This document shows, piece after piece, positions 3,650 through 29,222 of a stretch of 35,284 bases of DNA. The first letter of the stretch is position 1, and each line of letters begins with the position of its first letter. This stretch comes from Alphaproteobacteria bacterium (GTDB taxonomy: Bacteria > Pseudomonadota > Alphaproteobacteria > ATCC43930 > CGMCC-115725): the NCBI GenBank assembly GCA_019244535.1, contig JAFASL010000794.1:1-35284 (forward strand), in the 5' to 3' direction. A program made the position numbers and the translations under genes. Under the pieces are notes generated by a model that was given only the letters and a program-made list of their open reading frames with translations, searched no databases and was not told the origin of the DNA.

Positions 3650-4942
3650 CTACAGCCTTTCGGCAATCGGGGCGAGGGTGGGTCCGGGGGTGGGTGGCGC
3701 TGCCTCGTCTAGGCTCTGGAGGCTGCGGCCGCGGGTTTCGGGCAAGAGCAGCAATGTGACGATCATAATCACCGAGGCGAAGGCGCTAAAGAGCGCGATC
3801 GTCGCGCCGAGCGGCAAGCTCTCGCTGACAAACCCAACCAGGGTCGGAAGAAACGACCCGAGCGCCCGGCCTCCATTATAGCAAAAGCCTTGGGCGGTGC
3901 CGCGCACTCCGGTCGGATAGAGCTCCGTCATGAACGGGCCCATCGGCGGGAATTTCATCAGGAAGACCGTGAACAGCGGGACACCGACAAGCAAAAGCCC
4001 GGTATTGCCCATCGGCACAAACATGTAGACGAGGATCATCACGAGGGAACCCACCGCCGACCACATGAAGGTCCATTTCCGGCCTATCGCGTCGCTCAGA
4101 TAGGAACCCAGCAGAAACCCGAAGAGTGCGCCCAGGATCTGCACCAGGAGGAAACCTCCGGTGGTAGTGGCAGACAACCCGCGCACCGTGCGCAGGTAGG
4201 TCGGCATCCAGAGGCCGAGGGCATAGCCGCCGCCCTGGGCGCCGGCGACCATTAACGTGACCTTCACCGTGGTCCACAGATACGATCCCCGAAAAGCCGC
4301 GAACAGGTGGCCGAGACCCACCGCCGGGCCGGTGCTGCGCCGCGACCGGAAGAGTTCGGGCTCATCGATATGCCGGCGGATCCAGAAGACCAGAATTGCC
4401 GGCAGCAGACCGATTGCGAACAGAACCCGCCACGCGATCGCTTCGGGTAGAAAGGCGTAAAGGGCGGTGTAGACGAGGGCCGAGACGCCCCAGCCCACGG
4501 CCCAGCCGGTCTGGACGATCCCGACGGCGCGGCCGCGGTATTTGTCGCGAATTACCTCGCCCATTAATACGGCGCCGGCTGCCCATTCGCCGCCAAAGCC
4601 GAGCCCGTGCAATGCCCGTAAGACGAAGAGCTGCTCGAAATTCTGTGCGAAGGCGCACAGGAACGTGAAAACCGAATACCACAGGATCGTGATCTGCAGC
4701 ATGCGCACCCGGCCGAACCGGTCGGCCAATGTGCCGGAGAACCACCCTCCCAAGGACGAGATCAGCAATGTCACGGTCCCAATGAGACCGGCTTCGCCGC
4801 GCGACAGACCCCAAAGCGCGATCACCGTCGGGATCACGAAGCTGTACATCTGCACGTCGAACGCATCGAGCGCCCAGCCGCCAAAACAGGCGCCCATCGT
4901 TCGACGCTCTTTTGCGTTCAGTTCACCAAACCAGGCTAGCAC
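3650..4942 (-). CDS. MFS transporter, metabolite:H+ symporter type
   Basis: About 430 residues from GTG 4942, with alternating hydrophobic segments consistent with the 12-helix MFS fold. Loop 2-3 has the MFS signature GTLADRFGRVRM (about 70-81). RALHGLGFGGEWAAGAVL (from about 109) is typical of the sugar / aromatic-acid / metabolite symporter group, and helix 1 has the WALDAFDVQMYSFV pattern seen in aromatic-acid:H+ symporters. GTG 4942 is preferred because a strong GGGGAGGG site sits 6-7 nt upstream; an upstream in-frame GTG at 5044 would add 34 residues (SAVGSLIRWPLLLGELL) without a good ribosome site. It is the next minus-strand gene after infC, 194 nt downstream, and converges with argC. 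The substrate is unknown, probably an organic anion. Confidence 0.87.
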   Translation of the reverse strand: MLAWFGELNAKERRTMGACFGGWALDAFDVQMYSFVIPTVIALWGLSRGEAGLIGTVTLLISSLGGWFSGTLADRFGRVRMLQITILWYSVFTFLCAFAQNFEQLFVLRALHGLGFGGEWAAGAVLMGEVIRDKYRGRAVGIVQTGWAVGWGVSALVYTALYAFLPEAIAWRVLFAIGLLPAILVFWIRRHIDEPELFRSRRSTGPAVGLGHLFAAFRGSYLWTTVKVTLMVAGAQGGGYALGLWMPTYLRTVRGLSATTTGGFLLVQILGALFGFLLGSYLSDAIGRKWTFMWSAVGSLVMILVYMFVPMGNTGLLLVGVPLFTVFLMKFPPMGPFMTELYPTGVRGTAQGFCYNGGRALGSFLPTLVGFVSESLPLGATIALFSAFASVIMIVTLLLLPETRGRSLQSLDEAAPPTPGPTLAPIAERL

Positions 4943-21466: not shown

Positions 21467-22330
21467 ATGGTGCCGCACCCGCTGTCTGCCTTATCCAGGA
21501 CTTTAAGGAGAGGCGATCAGACCAAAATCGTCCTCCCACCCGTAATCGGTCACCGCGGCGCCGCCGGATATGCGCCTGAAAACACGGCGGCCGGTTTTCG
21601 CAAAGCCGCTGCGCTGGGCTGTTGCTGGGTCGAATTCGATGTCCGGTTGACCTCCGACAACCAGCCGGTTTTGCTGCACGATAACCGGTTGGAGCGAACC
21701 ACCGACGGGCGCGGCAAAGTTAATGCGAGGTCGTTCGCCGCGATCCGGCGCCACGATGCCGGGAGTTGGTTGCATCCGTCCTTCGCCAGGGAGCGCGTGC
21801 CGAAGCTGGCGGAGGCGCTTGCTCTTCTCGTCGAACTCGGGCTCGGCGGCAACATCGAACTGAAAGCTGCTCGTGGAAGAGCAGCGGAGACCGGGGCGCT
21901 GGTTTCCTCTTTGCTCGCTTCGAATTGGCCAGACGATCCGGCCCGGCTGTTGATCTCCAGCTTTCAGCCCGTCGCCCTCGCCGCAGCGCGCGATCACGCG
22001 CCACGCGTTCCGCGCGGGATCCTGTTCCGCCGGATCCCAAAGAACTGGTTTCGGATTGCGGCCAAGTTGGGCTGCGCCACTATCCATGCAGACCAACAGC
22101 GCCTTAGTGCGGCCGTCGTGTCGGATATCCGCCAGGCGGGTTATCCGTTGCTCGCCTATACCGTCAACGATCGCGCCAGAGCGCAGACTTTGTTCGATTG
22201 GGGGGTGACATCGGTGTTTTCCGATGTTCCTGATCGCCTGCAAGGCGTCGCGGCCGGCGGCGGCAGTTGTCCGGTGATGGTCGCGAACCGCGCCTCGGCC
22301 GCAGCTCCGCGGCAGGAGGCAATCTGGTGA
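21467..22330 (+). CDS. Glycerophosphodiester phosphodiesterase family protein
   Basis: About 287 residues from ATG 21467; a TTG at 21443 is an alternative, and neither has a clear ribosome site. GDPD enzymes cleave glycerophosphodiesters to glycerol-3-phosphate and an alcohol. The TIM-barrel signature is complete: VIGHRGAAGYAPENTAAGF (His 29, Arg 30, Glu 39), VEFDVRLTSDNQPVLLHD (Glu 56, Asp 58, His 71), then a later ELKAARGRAAE and LISSFQPVAL, with PLLAYTVNDRA and VTSVFSDVPDRLQ at the C-terminus. No convincing signal peptide, so probably cytoplasmic. It follows pnp by 53 nt. Its stop overlaps the next gene's start as GTGA (22327-22330), indicating translational coupling with the oxidoreductase. 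The biochemical link between the two is not obvious. Confidence 0.92.
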   Translation: MVPHPLSALSRTLRRGDQTKIVLPPVIGHRGAAGYAPENTAAGFRKAAALGCCWVEFDVRLTSDNQPVLLHDNRLERTTDGRGKVNARSFAAIRRHDAGSWLHPSFARERVPKLAEALALLVELGLGGNIELKAARGRAAETGALVSSLLASNWPDDPARLLISSFQPVALAAARDHAPRVPRGILFRRIPKNWFRIAAKLGCATIHADQQRLSAAVVSDIRQAGYPLLAYTVNDRARAQTLFDWGVTSVFSDVPDRLQGVAAGGGSCPVMVANRASAAAPRQEAIW

Positions 22331-23724
22331 AACCGCTCCATCCATTGGTAATTTCCGGGCGGGAGGTCCTGCCCCTCGTGGAAGGCGGCAAGGGTATCTC
22401 GGTTTCGAACGGCGAAAGCTCCGGCGCCTGGGCGGCAACCGGGGGTGTCGGCACGTTCTCGGGTGTTAACGCGGACAGCTACACCGAAAGCGGAGATCCG
22501 ATACCGCAGATCTATCATGGGCGGACGCGCGTGGAGCGGCACGAAGAACTCGTCGCTTACGCGGTCGCCGGCGGCATACAGCAAGCGCGGGTGGCTCACG
22601 AGCGCTCCAATGGCGAGGGCCGCATCCACATGAATGTATTGTGGGAAATGGCGGCAGCCGAGCGCGTGTTGCACGGCGTGTTGGAGGGGGCGAGGGGTCT
22701 CATCCATGGCGTCACCTGCGGTGCCGGCATGCCCTACAAAATCGCCGAAATCTGCGCGCGGTACGGGGTGCATTATTACCCGATCGTGTCGTCGGGCCGG
22801 GCGTTCCGGGCATTGTGGAAACGGGCCTACCACCGGTTTCGCGATTGGCTCGGCGGCGTGGTTTACGAAGATCCCTGGCTCGCCGGGGGTCACAACGGCA
22901 TCACCAACAGCGAGGACCCACAGAGCCCCGAACCTCCCTACCCGCGGGTTTGCGAGTTGCGCAGCCTAATGGTCGATTTCGGACTGGCCGAGACGCCGAT
23001 CTTTATGGCGGGCGGGGTCTGGTATTTGCGCGAGTGGGCCGACTGGATCGGCAATCCCGAACTCGGCCCGATCGCCTTCCAATTCGGAACCCGGCCGCTC
23101 CTTACTCAAGAGAGCCCGATTTCCGATGCATGGAAGCGTAAATTGCTGACCTTGGGTGAGGAAGACATCTACCTCAACCACTTTAGTCCCACGGGCTTCT
23201 ATTCCTCCGCTGTGCGCAACCGGTTTCTCGACGAGCTGCAGCAACGGTCGGAGCGCCAGGTCGCCTATGCGATCGAGCCGGTGGGTGAGCACATCGCCTC
23301 GTTCAGCGTTGGTCCTCGCGGCCGTATCGTCTACCTGACGGCGCAGGACAAACTATCGGCCGAGCGCTGGGTCGGCGAGGGGTTCAGTGAAGCCCTGCGC
23401 ACCCCCGATTCGACGCTCATTTTTGTGACGCCGCAAAAGGCGTTCGACATCCGCACCGACCAGATCGGCTGCATGGGCTGCCTCAGCGCATGCCAGTTCT
23501 CCAATTGGGCGCAGAACGAGCCGCGCTCGACCGGGAGAAAAGCCGATCCTCGTAGCTACTGCATCCAGAAGACATTGCAGGCGATCCGTCATTCCGACGA
23601 GGTCGACAGCCAGTTGATGTTCGCGGGACACAACGCCTACCGCTTCGCCTCGGACCCGTTCTATGCCAACGGGTATGTGCCCTCTGTGCGCGAGCTCGTC
23701 GAACGCTTGCAAACCGGCGATTGA
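22327..23724 (+). CDS. Nitronate monooxygenase-like FMN oxidoreductase with C-terminal Cys cluster
   Basis: 465 residues, longer than the roughly 320-370 of typical nitronate monooxygenases. The opening ISGREVLPLVEGGKGISVSN and GTFSGVN resemble the FMN TIM-barrel of the NPD/FabK group. Further signatures: GARGLIHGVTCGAGMPYKIA, YYPIVSSGRAFRAL, GGVVYEDPWLAGGHNGITNS (His 189 in AGGHNG matches the catalytic-base motif) and FMAGGVWYLREWADWI. The C-terminal part has C382, C385 and C389 (GCMGCLSACQFSNW) and another Cys near 412, a pattern able to hold an Fe-S cluster, as in dienoyl-CoA-reductase-type enzymes. GTG 22327 has AGGAGG (22314-22319) 7 nt upstream and overlaps the GDPD stop. It probably oxidises or reduces a small organic substrate with FMN; true activity is unknown. 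Confidence 0.8.
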   Translation: MKPLHPLVISGREVLPLVEGGKGISVSNGESSGAWAATGGVGTFSGVNADSYTESGDPIPQIYHGRTRVERHEELVAYAVAGGIQQARVAHERSNGEGRIHMNVLWEMAAAERVLHGVLEGARGLIHGVTCGAGMPYKIAEICARYGVHYYPIVSSGRAFRALWKRAYHRFRDWLGGVVYEDPWLAGGHNGITNSEDPQSPEPPYPRVCELRSLMVDFGLAETPIFMAGGVWYLREWADWIGNPELGPIAFQFGTRPLLTQESPISDAWKRKLLTLGEEDIYLNHFSPTGFYSSAVRNRFLDELQQRSERQVAYAIEPVGEHIASFSVGPRGRIVYLTAQDKLSAERWVGEGFSEALRTPDSTLIFVTPQKAFDIRTDQIGCMGCLSACQFSNWAQNEPRSTGRKADPRSYCIQKTLQAIRHSDEVDSQLMFAGHNAYRFASDPFYANGYVPSVRELVERLQTGD

Positions 23725-24101
23725 GCCGATTAAGCATCGAACCGCTCCCGATTTTCTCGCGGGACCAGCGAGGGCCAGGTCGACAGCGGTGGTCTGCGCG
23801 CCCGCGCGCGCGTTGACCAGGATGCCGAAAAATACCCCTAGTTTGGGATGCTTCTAAGGAGTTGACTCGGCCTGCGGGTGCTGTCCATTATCCGTCATCG
23901 CTTCGGCTCGGCCGCATTTCCGCGACCGCCTCGTTCCAAAGGACATCGAGCGGACGGATGGCGTATTCTCACATCGAGCGACCTGCGGAGGCCCTTGCGG
24001 TCTCGCGGAGAGAGGGAGGATCCGGGCTCGGCTCCTTCCCCGGCCAAACCACGATGCAATGATCAGCGTGTGATTCACCAACACAAGGAGGAGACCTAAA
24101 G
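23725..24101. other. 377-bp intergenic region before the DUF1800-DUF1501-NHL genes
   Basis: No protein-coding signal was recognised; short open frames on both strands lack family features. The region holds a possible small hairpin (CTCGC 23756-23760 with GCGAG 23768-23772), a run of alternating GC (about 23797-23813), a promoter-like pair near 23862-23891 and the ribosome site of the DUF1800 gene at 24085-24091. If the promoter is real, the leader would be about 200 nt. Confidence 0.6.
23862..23891 (+). promoter_or_regulatory. Candidate promoter for the DUF1800-DUF1501-NHL genes
   Basis: TTGACT (23862-23867) and CATTAT (23886-23891) are separated by 18 bp, five and four matches to the sigma-70 boxes. 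It is the best promoter-like pair seen in the long gap before the DUF1800 gene. No experimental or comparative support. Confidence 0.35.
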
Positions 24102-25505
24102 ATGGCACACCAGGATGACATCGCTCTGATGGCGCACCTGATGCGCCGTGCTGGCTTTGGCGCGGGCCGCGACGAGCTCGAAGAGCGAGTAAAGAAGGGC
24201 TACGAGGCGACGGTCGAGGAGTTGCTGCATCCCGAAACGCAGCCCGAGGTCGACGCATACACCTTATTGCGCTATCAGCCGGCATCGCTGTTGCCGGGCG
24301 GGCAGCCGCCGATGGGCAACGTCAATTGGATGTACTATCTGGTCAATACTCAGCGGCCGCTTGAAGAAAAGATGGCGCTGTTCTGGCATCATGTCTTCGC
24401 CACCGGCAATTCAAAGGTCGACAATTACGACCAACTGCTGGAGCAGATCAATCTGTTCCGTGAAAAGGGCATGGGCAACTACCGCGAGCTGTTGCTCGAC
24501 GTCGCGAAAAACCCGACGATGATCTTCTGGCTGGACAACCAGCAGAACCATGGCACCGCGGTAAACGAGAACTGGGGCCGCGAGCTCCTCGAATTGTTCA
24601 GCCTCGGTGCCGGGAACTACACCGAGAAGGACGTGCGGGAATGCTCGCGGGCTTTCACGGGATGGACCTTTGAGACCAAGATTCCGCGCGCGCCGTATGG
24701 CCGGTTCCCGTGGAAATTTGAATATCGCCCCGAAGACCACGACGACGGCGAGAAAGAATTTCTCGGTCACAAAGGCCGATTCAACGGCGAAGACATCATA
24801 GACATCGTCGTGCAGCAGCCGGCTTGCGGCAAGTTCATCTGCCGCCACCTCTACAACTTCTTCGTGGCGGACGAGCCTCAGGTGCCGGCCTGGCCGATTG
24901 AGCCGCCGCAAGACCAGAAGGCCATCGACACTTTGGTCGGGGCGTTCCGCGATGCGAAGTTCGACATGAAGCCCGTGTTGCGCACGCTGTTCAACTCGGA
25001 CTTCTTCAAGAACGCCCGCTTCAAGCATATGAAGTCGCCGGCCGAGGTCGTGGTCGGCACGTTGCGATTGGTTGGCGGTCATGAGCTTCCGAAGCCGGGC
25101 ATCGGCGAGCTGTCGATGCAGCCCACTTATATGGGCCAGGATCTGCTCAATCCGCCGTCGGTCGAAGGCTGGCATACCGGTAAGGAGTGGATCAACAGTG
25201 GCTCCTTGATGGCGCGCATCAACTTCGTTGCGGAGAAGGTTGGCGACACATCACTGCCGGGCGTCCAAGCAATCATTGGCCGCTTGAAGCAGCGTGGCTC
25301 GCTCAGCCCCGAGCAGCTCGTCGATGGCTGTCTGGACCAGATCGGCCCAGTCGAGGTTGGTGCCGACACCAAACAAGAGCTGACTTCACAGGCCAAGGAA
25401 TGGGGCCAGATCAGCTGGGACAACGGCAACGCGCAAATTGCCGATCAGCGAGTTGCTCAAATGCTGCAGCTGATTGCCGCCACCAGAGAGTATCAGTTCG
25501 GCTAA
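24102..25505 (+). CDS. DUF1800 family protein
   Basis: 467 residues. It opens with the DUF1800 pattern DIALMAHLMRRAGFGAGRDE, followed by LEEKMALFWHHVFATGNSKV (the WHxHF-like block), GNYRELLLDVAKNPTMIFWL, NENWGRELLELFSLGAGNYT, DVRECSRAFTGWTF, KFICRHLYNFFVADE and FKHMKSPAEVVVGTLR; DLLNPPSVEGWHTGKEWINS is near the end of the domain. All main blocks of the family are present. The molecular role of the family is unknown; it is usually paired with a DUF1501 gene, as here. No signal peptide or membrane segment is seen. ATG 24102 has a strong AAGGAGG (24085-24091) about 10 nt upstream. The DUF1501 gene follows 34 nt after the stop. The family call is firm; function is not known. Confidence 0.92.
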   Translation: MAHQDDIALMAHLMRRAGFGAGRDELEERVKKGYEATVEELLHPETQPEVDAYTLLRYQPASLLPGGQPPMGNVNWMYYLVNTQRPLEEKMALFWHHVFATGNSKVDNYDQLLEQINLFREKGMGNYRELLLDVAKNPTMIFWLDNQQNHGTAVNENWGRELLELFSLGAGNYTEKDVRECSRAFTGWTFETKIPRAPYGRFPWKFEYRPEDHDDGEKEFLGHKGRFNGEDIIDIVVQQPACGKFICRHLYNFFVADEPQVPAWPIEPPQDQKAIDTLVGAFRDAKFDMKPVLRTLFNSDFFKNARFKHMKSPAEVVVGTLRLVGGHELPKPGIGELSMQPTYMGQDLLNPPSVEGWHTGKEWINSGSLMARINFVAEKVGDTSLPGVQAIIGRLKQRGSLSPEQLVDGCLDQIGPVEVGADTKQELTSQAKEWGQISWDNGNAQIADQRVAQMLQLIAATREYQFG

Positions 25506-25539
25506 GACGCAGACTTAGTACGCAAGGAGGAACTAAGCG

Positions 25540-26679
25540 ATGCCCGAAACACAGACTGCGCAGAAAGACCCGGTTATAGTTGTTCTGCAACTGACCGGTG
25601 GAAACGATTACCTGAACACCGTGATCCCCTACAACAATCCGTTGTATCGCGACAACCGGAAGGCGGTCGGGATTCCTGACAACCAGATCATGCACCTCGA
25701 CAAGGACTACGGCATCCCGCACTACATGGCGCCGTTGAAGCAGTTCTGGGATGACAACAAGCTGGCCATCCTGCACGGCGTCGGCTGGAAGGAGTCGCCG
25801 CGGTCCCATTTCCGGGCCATGGACATCTGGCACACCTGCGAGCCAATCAAGGTCGGAACCGAAGGATGGCTCGGGCGCGTGGCGCGCGAATTCGATCCCA
25901 AGAAGGAAAACGTCGTCACAACCGTCAGCTTCGGGCCGAGCCTGCCGCGCTCGCTGGCAGTGCCGGGAGTGCCGGTGGCGTGCGTGGCCGGCCCGCTCGA
26001 GAAATACGGCTTCTTGCCCACCATCCAAGGCGAGCAGCGCAAGCAGGTCCTCGAGCGCTTTGCGGCCATGTACAAGCCGGCAATCGGCACCGGCCCGGTA
26101 ATGGATTATATGGCCGATACCGGCATCGACTCCCTGAAGGGCGAAGACATCCTTAAGGTAGCACCGCAGAAGTATTCGTCGACGGTGCAGTATCCCAACA
26201 CGCCGATCGCCCGTAAGCTCAAGGGCATCGCGCAAACCCATCTGGCCGATTTGGGCAGTCGCATTTTCTACTGTGACCACAGCACCTTCGATACCCATGC
26301 CGGTCAGAACCCGGGTCACCAGAATCTATGGACCGCGGTGACCGAGGGTGTCGATGCCTTCATGAAAGACCTGCGCGAGCACGACCACGCCGACAACGTG
26401 ATCTTGCTGATGTTCTCGGAGTTCGGTCGTCGCGTCCGCGACAATGGCTCCGGAACCGATCACGGCGCCGGCGGCGTCGCCTTCGTCCTCGGCGAGAAGG
26501 TCAAGGGCGGCCATTACGGTGAGATGCCCTCCCTCAAGCCAGAGCATCTGGTCCAGGGAGACCTCAACCCGAACATGGACTTCCGCAGCGTCTACTCGAC
26601 GATCCTCGATAAGTGGCTGAAGCTCAATCCGGCCCCGATCGTCAACGGCACCTTCGAGCAACCGGCCTTCCTGCACTGA
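25540..26679 (+). CDS. DUF1501 family protein (alkaline-phosphatase/sulfatase-like fold)
   Basis: 379 residues. Family blocks: VVLQLTGGNDYLNTVIPY (N22, D23), LHGVGWKESPRSHFRAMDIW (S89, H90), YCDHSTFDTHAGQNPGHQNL (D251, H253), LMFSEFGRRVRDNGSGTDHG (E294, D307, H308) and AGGVAFVLGEKVKGGHYG. The conserved Asp/His positions fit a metal-dependent hydrolase-like centre. Many DUF1501 proteins have a Tat signal peptide; this one starts MPETQTAQKDPVIVVLQL with none, so it is predicted cytoplasmic unless exported with a partner. AAGGAGG (25524-25530) lies 9 nt before ATG 25540, inside a possible weak stem (CTTAG 25514-25518 with CTAAG 25533-25537). It sits between the DUF1800 and NHL genes. Substrate and reaction unknown. 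Confidence 0.92.
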   Translation: MPETQTAQKDPVIVVLQLTGGNDYLNTVIPYNNPLYRDNRKAVGIPDNQIMHLDKDYGIPHYMAPLKQFWDDNKLAILHGVGWKESPRSHFRAMDIWHTCEPIKVGTEGWLGRVAREFDPKKENVVTTVSFGPSLPRSLAVPGVPVACVAGPLEKYGFLPTIQGEQRKQVLERFAAMYKPAIGTGPVMDYMADTGIDSLKGEDILKVAPQKYSSTVQYPNTPIARKLKGIAQTHLADLGSRIFYCDHSTFDTHAGQNPGHQNLWTAVTEGVDAFMKDLREHDHADNVILLMFSEFGRRVRDNGSGTDHGAGGVAFVLGEKVKGGHYGEMPSLKPEHLVQGDLNPNMDFRSVYSTILDKWLKLNPAPIVNGTFEQPAFLH

Positions 26680-26696
26680 CGCCAAGTTAGCGGTCC

Positions 26697-26728
26697 CCCT
26701 TTCCTGCGGCGCGAGCCGCTGGAAAGGG
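26697..26728 (+). other. Long stable hairpin with GCGA tetraloop between the DUF1501 and NHL genes
   Basis: CCCTTTCC-T-GCGGC (26697-26710) pairs with GCCGC-T-GGAAAGGG (26715-26728): 13 base pairs broken by one T-T mismatch and closed by GCGA, a GNRA-type loop. No long U-tract follows (TTCGAATAGG), so it is more likely an mRNA stabiliser, processing site or weak terminator than a full intrinsic terminator. It would separate the first two genes from the NHL gene at RNA level. Confidence 0.75.
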
Positions 26729-26777
26729 TTCGAATAGGTCGGACAGTAATCAGAGAGAATCAGAGAGGAGGAGCGCT

Positions 26778-27884
26778 ATGCCGCTCACAACGGTTCAGGA
26801 AGGACGAGTGTATGATTGGAGCCATGCTGTCGGGCGCAACGCCGCCCGCGGCCCGGGCTTCAACTACGTGCAATCGATGTGCCTCGGTAAGAACGGTTTT
26901 CTCTATGCCACCAACCGTGGCAACGAGAACAATTTCGGGATGCACGTCAATAAGGTGCAGCTCGGCAGAGGTCCCGGTGAAGAAGAACATATCGCCGACT
27001 TCTTCGAATACGGTGAAGGCGACGGCAAGTGTACTTGGCCGTTTGGTATCGCGGTTGACGACAATTACGATGTGTACGTATCGGACGACTGGACGAACAC
27101 AATCTCGGTGTTCGACAGCGCCGGCAACTTCCTGCGGAAGTGGGGCAAGCCCGGCAGCGGTGACGGTGAGCTAAATCGCCCGGCCGGTCTGGCGGTCGAG
27201 AAGAACGGCAACATCATCGTCGTCGACAGCGGCAACAACCGCCTCCAGGTGTTCAAGCCGGACGGGACGTTTGTCGGCAAGTGCGGCGGCACGGGCAGCG
27301 GCGATGGTCAGTTCAACCAGCCATGGGGCATTACGCTCGACAAGGATGGCAACATCTACGTCGCGGACTGGAAGAACCATCGGGTGCAAAAGCTGTCCCC
27401 GGAAGGCAAGTTCCTGATGAAATTCGGCCAATATGGGAAGGTCGAGGAGCCCGAGGGCTCGTATGCTGTGACCATGTTTGGGCCGTACGTCGCGGCACAG
27501 TCGGAAACCGCCGGTTATCCGAAGCCCGGCACCCTCAATCACCCGACCGATGTTGCGGTAGATCCCGATGGCGACATCTATGTGACCGATTGGGGCAACC
27601 ACCGGGTTTGCGTGTTTGACTCCGAAGGCAGGCCGATCTGCAATCTGATCGGTGATGCTCAGGTCTTGTCGAAGTGGGGCCAGCAGACCGTCGACGCCAA
27701 TCCCGACATGGCGAAGGCGCGCCGCCGTGTGAAGAGCCTTGAACCGCAATACCGCTTTTGCTTTCCGACGGCGGTAGAGTTCGATCCGGCGACCGACAGC
27801 GTCATTGTCGCGGATAGCCAGCGCAACCGGCTGCAAATATACAAGAAAGTCCGCGATTACAGCGACTTTCAGGCGAACCTGTAA
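26778..27884 (+). CDS. NHL-repeat beta-propeller protein
   Basis: 368 residues made almost entirely of NHL-type blades. Clear repeats are at about 87-123 (WPFGIAVDDNYDVYVSDD), 133-169 (RPAGLAVEKNGNIIVVDSGN), 181-217 (QPWGITLDKDGNIYVADWKN), 254-290 (HPTDVAVDPDGDIYVTDWGN) and 329-356 (FPTAVEFDPATDSVIVADSQ), and a weaker one at about 30-60. NHL propellers are binding scaffolds; some are lyases (the peptidyl-amidoglycolate lyase type), but nothing here proves catalysis. No signal peptide. ATG 26778 has GGAGGAG directly upstream; the preceding bases contain a short direct repeat (ATCAGAGAG). It follows the DUF1501 gene by 98 nt with a large hairpin between. Shared orientation and the same strong ribosome-site style suggest one functional unit with DUF1800 and DUF1501, but that is inference. 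Confidence 0.9.
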   Translation: MPLTTVQEGRVYDWSHAVGRNAARGPGFNYVQSMCLGKNGFLYATNRGNENNFGMHVNKVQLGRGPGEEEHIADFFEYGEGDGKCTWPFGIAVDDNYDVYVSDDWTNTISVFDSAGNFLRKWGKPGSGDGELNRPAGLAVEKNGNIIVVDSGNNRLQVFKPDGTFVGKCGGTGSGDGQFNQPWGITLDKDGNIYVADWKNHRVQKLSPEGKFLMKFGQYGKVEEPEGSYAVTMFGPYVAAQSETAGYPKPGTLNHPTDVAVDPDGDIYVTDWGNHRVCVFDSEGRPICNLIGDAQVLSKWGQQTVDANPDMAKARRRVKSLEPQYRFCFPTAVEFDPATDSVIVADSQRNRLQIYKKVRDYSDFQANL

Positions 27885-27897
27885 AAGGCTAAAAACT

Positions 27898-27924
27898 CTC
27901 CCGCCCCTGGGAACGGGGCGGGAG
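27898..27924 (+). terminator. Hairpin after the NHL gene, possible terminator
   Basis: CTCCCGCCCC (27898-27907) pairs perfectly over 10 bp with GGGGCGGGAG (27915-27924) around a 7-nt loop, 13 nt after the NHL stop codon. No U-tract follows on the plus strand; an A-run (AAAAA) lies before it, so it would look like an intrinsic terminator only for minus-strand transcription. It probably ends or protects the mRNA of the NHL gene. Confidence 0.6.
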
Positions 27925-28026: not shown

Positions 28027-28446
28027 ATGACGACTTCCGCCACAACTTTGGCCCTGCGGCGTTTGCGCGCCGCGAATTTGCGGCCTACGCGCCAGCGCGT
28101 GGCACTGGCGCGACTTTTGCTCGAAAGCGGGGAACGTCATGTGACCGCCGAGCAACTGCACGGTGAGGCGCTAGCCGCGGGAATTCGGGTATCTCTTGCG
28201 ACTATTTACAATAGTCTTCATCAATTCACCGACTCCGGACTTCTGCACGAGGTCGTTGTCGAACCCGGCCGCTCGTATTTCGATACGAACACCTCCGACC
28301 ACCACCATTTTTTTTGCGAAGTAACCGGGAAGTTGCAAGACATCCCCGGCGAAGACCTCACGGTGACAAGCCTGCCGATGCCTCCTCCAGGCACCGAAAT
28401 CAGCCGTGTCGACGTCATCATTCGGGTCCGCCCAGAGGGCGCGTAA
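28027..28446 (+). CDS. irr: Fur-family iron response regulator Irr
   Basis: 139 residues. Irr is the alphaproteobacterial Fur relative that represses or activates iron and haem genes when iron is low; its stability or activity follows haem status. The winged-helix part reads NLRPTRQRVALARLLLESGE, RHVTAEQLHGEALAAGIRVS and LATIYNSLHQFTDSGLLHEV. The dimer/metal part has SYFDTNTSDHHHFF with the HHH run (92-94) that marks Irr rather than Fur, Zur or Mur. There is no N-terminal haem regulatory Cys-Pro motif, as in many non-Bradyrhizobium Irr proteins. ATG 28027 lacks a ribosome site and lies 7 bp after a TATATT box. Remnants of an iron-sulfur gene and a DUF3501 gene follow, so it may once have stood beside iron-regulated redox genes. 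Confidence 0.92.
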   Translation: MTTSATTLALRRLRAANLRPTRQRVALARLLLESGERHVTAEQLHGEALAAGIRVSLATIYNSLHQFTDSGLLHEVVVEPGRSYFDTNTSDHHHFFCEVTGKLQDIPGEDLTVTSLPMPPPGTEISRVDVIIRVRPEGA

Positions 28447-28562: not shown

Positions 28563-28619
28563 TTTATTAAATCATTCTAATCTATTGAAGCCGTCCCCCG
28601 GCACCTAAATCAGGTGCCC
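28563..28619. promoter_or_regulatory. AT-rich ICE-like motif and palindrome between irr and the Fe-S remnant
   Basis: An AT-rich stretch (28563-28580, TTTATTAAATCATTCTAA) contains a TTCTAA half-site and an imperfect upstream partner, resembling Irr-type iron control elements. Just downstream GGCACCT (28600-28606) and AGGTGCC (28612-28618) form a 7-bp hairpin with an AAATC loop, and flanking CC/GG extend it with a bulge. Role is speculative. The rest of 28447-28673 shows no gene. Confidence 0.3.
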
Positions 28620-28673
28620 GGGATCGCCGCGATTAACCGCCCCTGTTTCCAGATTCAATGTGAAGTAGCGGCA

Positions 28674-29222
28674 ATGAGAGAGGGCAGTCTGGAAGCCCGA
28701 CGCGGCACCGCATCGAGTGGGAAGATCCCGGACTTTACCGAAGCCGAAATGCGCCGCATCTTCGACATCTGTCACACCTGTCGGCGATGCTTCAATTTGT
28801 GCGGCGCATTCCCTCGTCTATTTGATCTAATCGACAATTCGGAAAGTGGCGAGCTCGATACGGTGGTGCCGGCCGACTACCAGAAGGTCGCCGACGCCTG
28901 CAGCCTGTGCGACAATTCGAGTGGCCGTTAATCCTTTCAGAGCACAGGCCGATCGAAAAGTTGGCGAAGGCCACTTTTCGACATAACAGGGATTCGCCCC
29001 TGGTCTGTCGGCACTCGACGGAGGCGTCACGGTTCAAATCGTCTGCCACGCGCGGGCGGAGAATATGGGGCAAAAAGCCGGCGAGATGCTCCGATTGCTT
29101 CCGCAGGCCGAAATCGCCCTGATCGAGCGCTGCTCGGGTCATGGCGGCTCCTGAGGCGTGCTCAAGGGCAACTTCGAGACCGCGTTGAAGGTGGGACCTC
29201 CGGAGCCCGAGCAATTGCCGGG
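28674..29222 (+). pseudogene. Remnant of a GlpC/HdrD-like [4Fe-4S] protein gene
   Basis: The 5' piece (28674-28931, ATG 28674) reads MREGSLEARRGTASSG then MRRIFDICHTCRRCFNLCGA and FPRLFDLIDNSESGELDTV, the start of the heterodisulfide-reductase-type iron-sulfur proteins that sit with rubrerythrin and DUF3501 in alphaproteobacteria. It reaches the second cluster (ADACSLCD) and ends at once in NSSGR and TAA. The 3' piece resumes near 29017 in another frame as GGVTVQIVCHARAENMGQKA, AGEMLRLLPQAEIALIERCS and GHGGS, then TGA (29152-29154) where the family has Trp, then GVLKGNFETALKVG. The central region, several hundred residues in intact relatives, is missing. The 86-codon 5' ORF may still be translated, but with one complete cluster motif at most it cannot do the original job. 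Confidence 0.8.

Follow-up and report, generated by a model that had tools for sequence, protein, structure and literature searches.

Proteins of the DUF1800 and DUF1501 families usually come as a pair. In one described case, such a pair forms part of a conserved operon adjoining bacterial chitin synthase genes, and its DUF1501 member carries a twin-arginine translocation (Tat) signal (PMC5122149). Only two papers in the literature searched name both families, and no function for the pairs turned up there. Here we describe a locus in which the pair is followed by a gene for an NHL-repeat beta-propeller. It lies on contig JAFASL010000794.1 of Alphaproteobacteria bacterium (GTDB ATCC43930; CGMCC-115725; assembly GCA_019244535.1), within a stretch of 35,284 nt that is referred to below as the window. 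This trio has the same two families, side by side, and the same invariant residues as the Tat-exported pairs, from which it differs in the absence of a signal peptide, the larger number of cysteines, the presence of the NHL gene as a third member and the possession of a DUF1501 clade of its own. DUF1501 itself is present in 38 of the 142 genomes sampled in the class. The NHL-linked form has, in the partial coverage of the literature searched, no description that we could find, and the trio is a genuine new variation on the known pair.

The three genes lie on the plus strand. DUF1800 (24102..25505) encodes 467 aa and scores 339.8 bits with PF08811 against a gathering threshold of 26.1, covering positions 1-418 of the 419 in the profile. 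DUF1501 (25540..26679) encodes 379 aa and scores 87.8 bits with PF07394 against a threshold of 27, the best stretch comprising profile positions 233-343 only. The NHL protein (26778..27884) has 368 aa and scores 146.8 bits with PF01436 against 20. Gaps of 34 and 98 bp separate the genes, and a strong, purine-rich Shine-Dalgarno motif can be read on the plus strand before each start: AAGGAGG at 24085..24091 and 25524..25530 for DUF1800 and DUF1501, respectively, and AGGAGG at 26766..26771 for the NHL gene. A non-coding stretch of 377 bp (23725-24101) lies 5′ of DUF1800. The layout given in a preliminary description of this DNA, with three adjacent same-strand genes, AAGGAGG-like ribosome sites and a 377-bp upstream region, is thus borne out by the open reading frames, the Pfam scores and the coordinates.

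None of the three proteins encoded in the window has an N-terminal extension or a hydrophobic stretch, and the same is true across the trio homologues, so that the absence of signal peptides first noted in the window extends to its relatives. No Tat-type twin-arginine signal was found on the window DUF1501. Among the 62 DUF1501 proteins compared, those linked to NHL genes begin directly at the core domain without a hydrophobic stretch, whereas nearly all the others, including two paralogues from the window's own genome (L002 and L003), combine a twin-arginine motif with a hydrophobic segment; one protein outside the NHL-linked set (L043) has no clear signal either. In a maximum-likelihood tree of 56 rows, which leaves out the mis-cored sequences L042 and L074, the 14 NHL-linked DUF1501 proteins form one clade (support 100/100) apart from the 42 others, with the qualification that the flanks of most sampled loci span about 1.5 kb and more distant NHL genes would escape notice. 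The trio DUF1501 proteins contain on average 3.9 cysteines, as compared with 0.8 in the exported ones (the rows are related, which makes the p-value indicative only), and this higher count fits a reducing compartment. Signal absence, single clade and cysteine richness together support, on sequence grounds, a cytoplasmic location of the trio DUF1501. The preliminary description had set the signal-less trio against the Tat-exported members that such pairs often have. The contrast holds for DUF1501, since nearly all other sampled members are Tat-like, but not for DUF1800: at L003, a signal-less DUF1800 stands beside a Tat-type DUF1501, and a signal-less DUF1800 is therefore uninformative by itself. 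DUF1800-DUF1501 pairs were also encountered in the predicted viral contigs IMGVR_UViG_3300008259_004660 (L067/L073) and IMGVR_UViG_3300032293_001788 (L069/L072), where a ThyX-like open reading frame adjoins them and DUF1501 keeps a Tat-like N-terminus (TRREFLK/TRKEFIK); the pair at L074 is more divergent than these two.

Homologous loci were gathered by a DUF1501 scan of species genomes, which yielded 15, and by an NHL search of 61 relatives, which added others. The order DUF1800-DUF1501-NHL and the common strand are constant, with no exception, in every locus with an adequate contig (L015, L017-L028 and others). Protein identities are high, at 79-94% for DUF1800, 73-96% for DUF1501 and 66-90% for the NHL protein. 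The gap before the NHL gene ranges from about 67 to 153 bp and is wider and more variable than that before DUF1501. The carriers belong to several alphaproteobacterial families and are scattered among soil and water Alphaproteobacteria. In the clade of the window the flanks are mostly common and comprise a nitronate monooxygenase (NMO)-like gene, irr and rubrerythrin, while the genes around the trio are unrelated at L021 and L023-L027 (Acetobacteraceae, Hyphomicrobiaceae and others). Since the flanks are unrelated between lineages, the linkage goes beyond common ancestry of a single region. The tie between the NHL gene and a signal-less pair, which had been proposed as the point to check, was found in every testable homologous locus; together with the single DUF1501 clade, it makes a distinct cytoplasmic system, earlier called plausible, a sound reading. 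Distribution of the trio is patchy: only 10 of the 61 relatives gave a match with the NHL protein at E 1e-30, and among 385 genomes of the class two stand out, that of the window and G159. Two copies call for comment in their own right. A contig labelled Acidobacteriota (L016, JAGWQP010000376.1) encodes a DUF1501 protein 91% identical to an alphaproteobacterial one and is probably mis-binned. At L028, a frameshift splits DUF1501 (1307-2412) and a second NHL fragment lies at 4445-4765; this copy is possibly decaying or misassembled.

A more divergent relative was found in G159 among the DUF1501 genes sampled in the class with the Pfam model. This locus (L060/L065) encodes a signal-less DUF1501 protein, 49% identical to that of the window, and an NHL gene that precedes it, in swapped order. 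The two NHL proteins are 32% identical over nearly their full length and have a C-terminal non-repeat insert in common, whose pattern is W..N..A.ARxR...EP. When the L065 NHL protein was used as query against 299 genomes at E 1e-60, no matches were obtained, and a plasmid search with the NHL protein returned only a Chloroflexota propeller, with no DUF genes near it. The scytonemin-associated protein ScyF (NF035926) is likewise an NHL propeller of similar length; the window protein, at 152.1 bits against a curated cut-off of 350, was rejected as a ScyF and, in contrast to the PEP-CTERM (exported) protein that this model describes, shows no signal peptide.

The window DUF1501 aligns over its full length with other DUF1501 proteins at 23-34% identity. 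D23, S89, H90, D251, H253, E294, D307 and H308 are invariant across divergent members and represent candidate metal or active-site residues. Of the five residues listed in the preliminary description (D251, H253, E294, D307 and H308), all are indeed conserved, but their invariance in divergent proteins marks them as features of the family and not of this locus. An AlphaFold2 model built from a shallow alignment reached a predicted template-modelling score (pTM) of 0.75 and a mean predicted local distance difference test score (pLDDT) of 66.6. With this moderate model as query, the best Foldseek matches in the PDB were sulfatases, lipoteichoic acid synthase (LtaS) and phosphonate monoester hydrolase; all best matches belong to the alkaline-phosphatase superfamily (E down to 1.6e-4, probability 0.99, TM about 0.4). 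D23, D251 and E294 would sit at predicted strand ends or close to them, reminiscent of the acidic and histidine residues of that superfamily, which includes the arylsulfatases. An alkaline-phosphatase/sulfatase-superfamily fold is accordingly predicted for DUF1501, and the model speaks in favour of the hydrolase-like character suggested earlier. Identity to these enzymes is about 10%, and the C/S-x-P-x-R sulfatase motif was not seen in the DUF1501 alignment; a sequence search of the PDB with DUF1501 gave nothing significant (best E 0.64). The DUF1800 model is helical (pTM 0.63). It had no Foldseek match in the PDB at E <1, and the sequence search of the PDB with DUF1800 gave nothing significant.

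A possible clue to regulation comes from the upstream region. The Irr box, or iron control element (ICE), is a palindrome with the consensus TTTAGAANNNTTCTAAA, which has 14 fixed positions. A verified Rhodobacter Irr site, TTAGAAATATTCTAGA, agrees with this consensus (PMC6956336). The window contains an Irr-box-like palindrome, TTTGGGATGCTTCTAAG, at 23842..23858 (plus strand), which matches 11 of the 14 fixed positions and is a predicted operator; the pattern with a one-base spacer gave no matches. Four bases past it begins a sigma-70-like promoter, TTGACT-18-CATTAT (23862..23891, plus strand). The consensus scan alone does not outperform chance; of seven homologous upstream regions, six retain the TTGACT hexamer. 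In the clade of the window, the best Irr-box match falls at -254 to -282, with scores of 10 to 13, in all seven upstream regions, and both its position and its dyad are kept in each. Scores in the outgroup never exceed 8 (none of six regions). A scan of sixteen loci found eight sites scoring at least 11/14, six of which are at trio promoters, the remaining two lying 5′ of rubrerythrin (L015 and L017). Rubrerythrin-like genes are documented Irr targets (PMC3413700). The irr gene itself (28027..28446, plus strand; IrrA, a Fur family iron regulator; NF045678, 208.4 bits against a cut-off of 150) lies 3′ of the trio in the window and is the proposed regulator; at L017-L019 it is found 5′ of the trio, a place taken by the NMO-like gene in the window, L015 and L029. 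Neither irr nor the Irr-box-like promoter element figured in the preliminary description. Outside this clade, L024 and L027 have an OxyR-like LysR gene 5′ of the trio, accompanied at L024 by a peroxiredoxin gene on the 3′ side and at L027 by a weakly rubrerythrin-like open reading frame on the 5′ side (37.9 bits against a cut-off of 200). The trio resembles the Irr regulon of Alphaproteobacteria (mbfA/rubrerythrin, ccpA, isc-suf) in its Irr-box-like promoter palindrome and in the proximity of irr and rubrerythrin; it differs in that its operator is predicted and that DUF1800 and DUF1501 are not mentioned as Irr targets in the available parts of PMC3413700 and PMC6956336. A leader of about 200 nt is presumed 5′ of DUF1800 (window 23858-24101), and parts of it are conserved within the clade (GGCTCGGCCGCA..CCGCGACCGCC..GGACGGATGGCGTA). 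No Rfam family matched the 386-bp upstream stretch, and covariation was unconvincing when the leader was folded (positive covariation term).

Our favoured explanation, to which we assign a probability of roughly 0.5, is that the trio is an inherited operon for a cytoplasmic enzyme module that arose from an exported DUF1800/DUF1501 pair, works with an NHL partner and is under Irr control in the lineage of the window. A Tat-exported ancestor would have lost its export signal and gained the propeller. Catalysis would most likely fall to DUF1501, as a hydrolase or transferase that depends on a metal, belongs to the alkaline-phosphatase/sulfatase superfamily and has an intracellular phosphate or sulfate ester as its substrate. 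DUF1800 would be its usual helical partner, and the propeller would probably dock or recognise the substrate or hold the enzyme, the last being the role put forward in the preliminary description. Irr would probably set transcription according to iron or heme status in the lineage of the window, and other lineages may rely on an OxyR-like regulator; the two regulators together suggest involvement in iron or peroxide stress.

Several observations weigh against this explanation. The DUF1501 model is moderate (mean pLDDT 66.6, TM about 0.4), and its weak stretches, around residues 98-107 and 298-307, lie close to the presumed active site. DUF1800 was found neither on the short contig of L065 nor elsewhere in genome G159, an absence that is weak evidence given the length of the contig and the 5% contamination recorded for the genome. 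The trio is missing from some genomes of the same genus and is thus dispensable. As for the regulator, an Irr-box match as good as the 11/14 of the window turns up in 21 of 100 shuffled versions of it; a chance match is not rare, and the argument for the box rests on conserved position among relatives, whose sequences are not independent. Finally, neither irr nor the box was found in the outgroup loci, and the OxyR-like gene occurs in two of the five with adequate upstream sequence.

The absence of export signals may be read differently. The trio might be an ordinary pair that is still exported, either along an unrecognised pathway or carried by another Tat substrate, with the NHL protein as a third exported part. 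The signal-less DUF1800 beside a Tat-type DUF1501 at L003 indicates that such hitch-hiking is possible in the family, and the nearest NCBIfam model of the NHL protein describes an exported one. Yet no trio protein of any homologue bears a signal, leaving no carrier within the operon, and the cysteine richness sets the trio DUF1501 apart from its exported relatives; we regard export as the least probable of the alternatives. Nor does it seem at all probable that the NHL protein is a generic propeller, merely co-transcribed and functionally untied to the pair. Such repeats do occur in many unrelated settings, and the larger, more variable gap before this gene would suit loose association, but every testable locus shows the linkage, in families whose flanks differ, and it survives swapped order at 49% DUF1501 identity.

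Alternatively, DUF1501 and DUF1800 may be non-catalytic and form an assembly with a structural or metal-sequestering function, such as iron handling controlled by Irr, where the conserved ligands merely bind metal. The predicted Irr control with irr and rubrerythrin nearby, the failure of DUF1800 to match any solved structure and the variable flanks, which point to no substrate, would all agree with this. It is nevertheless improbable in our view, as the polar residues invariant in the family are kept, including a serine in the region usual for a nucleophile, and the Foldseek matches of DUF1501 are enzymes. A last alternative concerns regulation only and is compatible with the rest of the favoured explanation: the proximity of irr may be a coincidence of neighbourhood and the palindrome a chance or unrelated promoter element. 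Both the box and the adjacency are confined to one clade, and matches of equal quality arise by chance across the window. On the other hand, position and dyad of the site are constant in all seven regions even where the upstream gene differs, and the only other comparable sites found sit 5′ of rubrerythrin. We therefore consider coincidence doubtful, but to be taken seriously.

Some neighbouring features remain to be mentioned. A GC-rich hairpin, placed on neither strand, follows the trio (27898..27924; minimum free energy z-score -2.1). The preliminary description had it framing the trio and it is indeed present. Its T-run sits on the minus-strand side only, the wrong orientation for a canonical terminator of the trio, and this reading was rejected. 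The NMO-like gene (window 22267-23724) encodes a 485-aa protein with a weak nitronate monooxygenase/FabK-like match (34 bits against 28) and is kept 5′ of the trio in the clade of the window. A 105-aa open reading frame at window 28614-28931 is similar to the N-terminal part of a GlpC-like iron-sulfur protein, which is intact at L017 (10237-11613) with 458 aa; the window copy is seemingly truncated, or the assembly is broken at that point.

Considered as a whole, the locus may, more tentatively, stand for a dedicated cytoplasmic enzyme system that responds to iron and peroxide. An enzyme pair once exported would have been internalised, coupled to an NHL protein and brought under the control of Irr or an OxyR-type regulator, and it would carry out an intracellular reaction to which no enzyme has so far been assigned. 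The trio is small, slowly evolving, self-contained and apparently cytoplasmic. With export signals absent, partners defined, an expression condition (iron status) predicted and a candidate regulator amenable to testing, it provides a practical entry to the widespread DUF1800/DUF1501 pairs.

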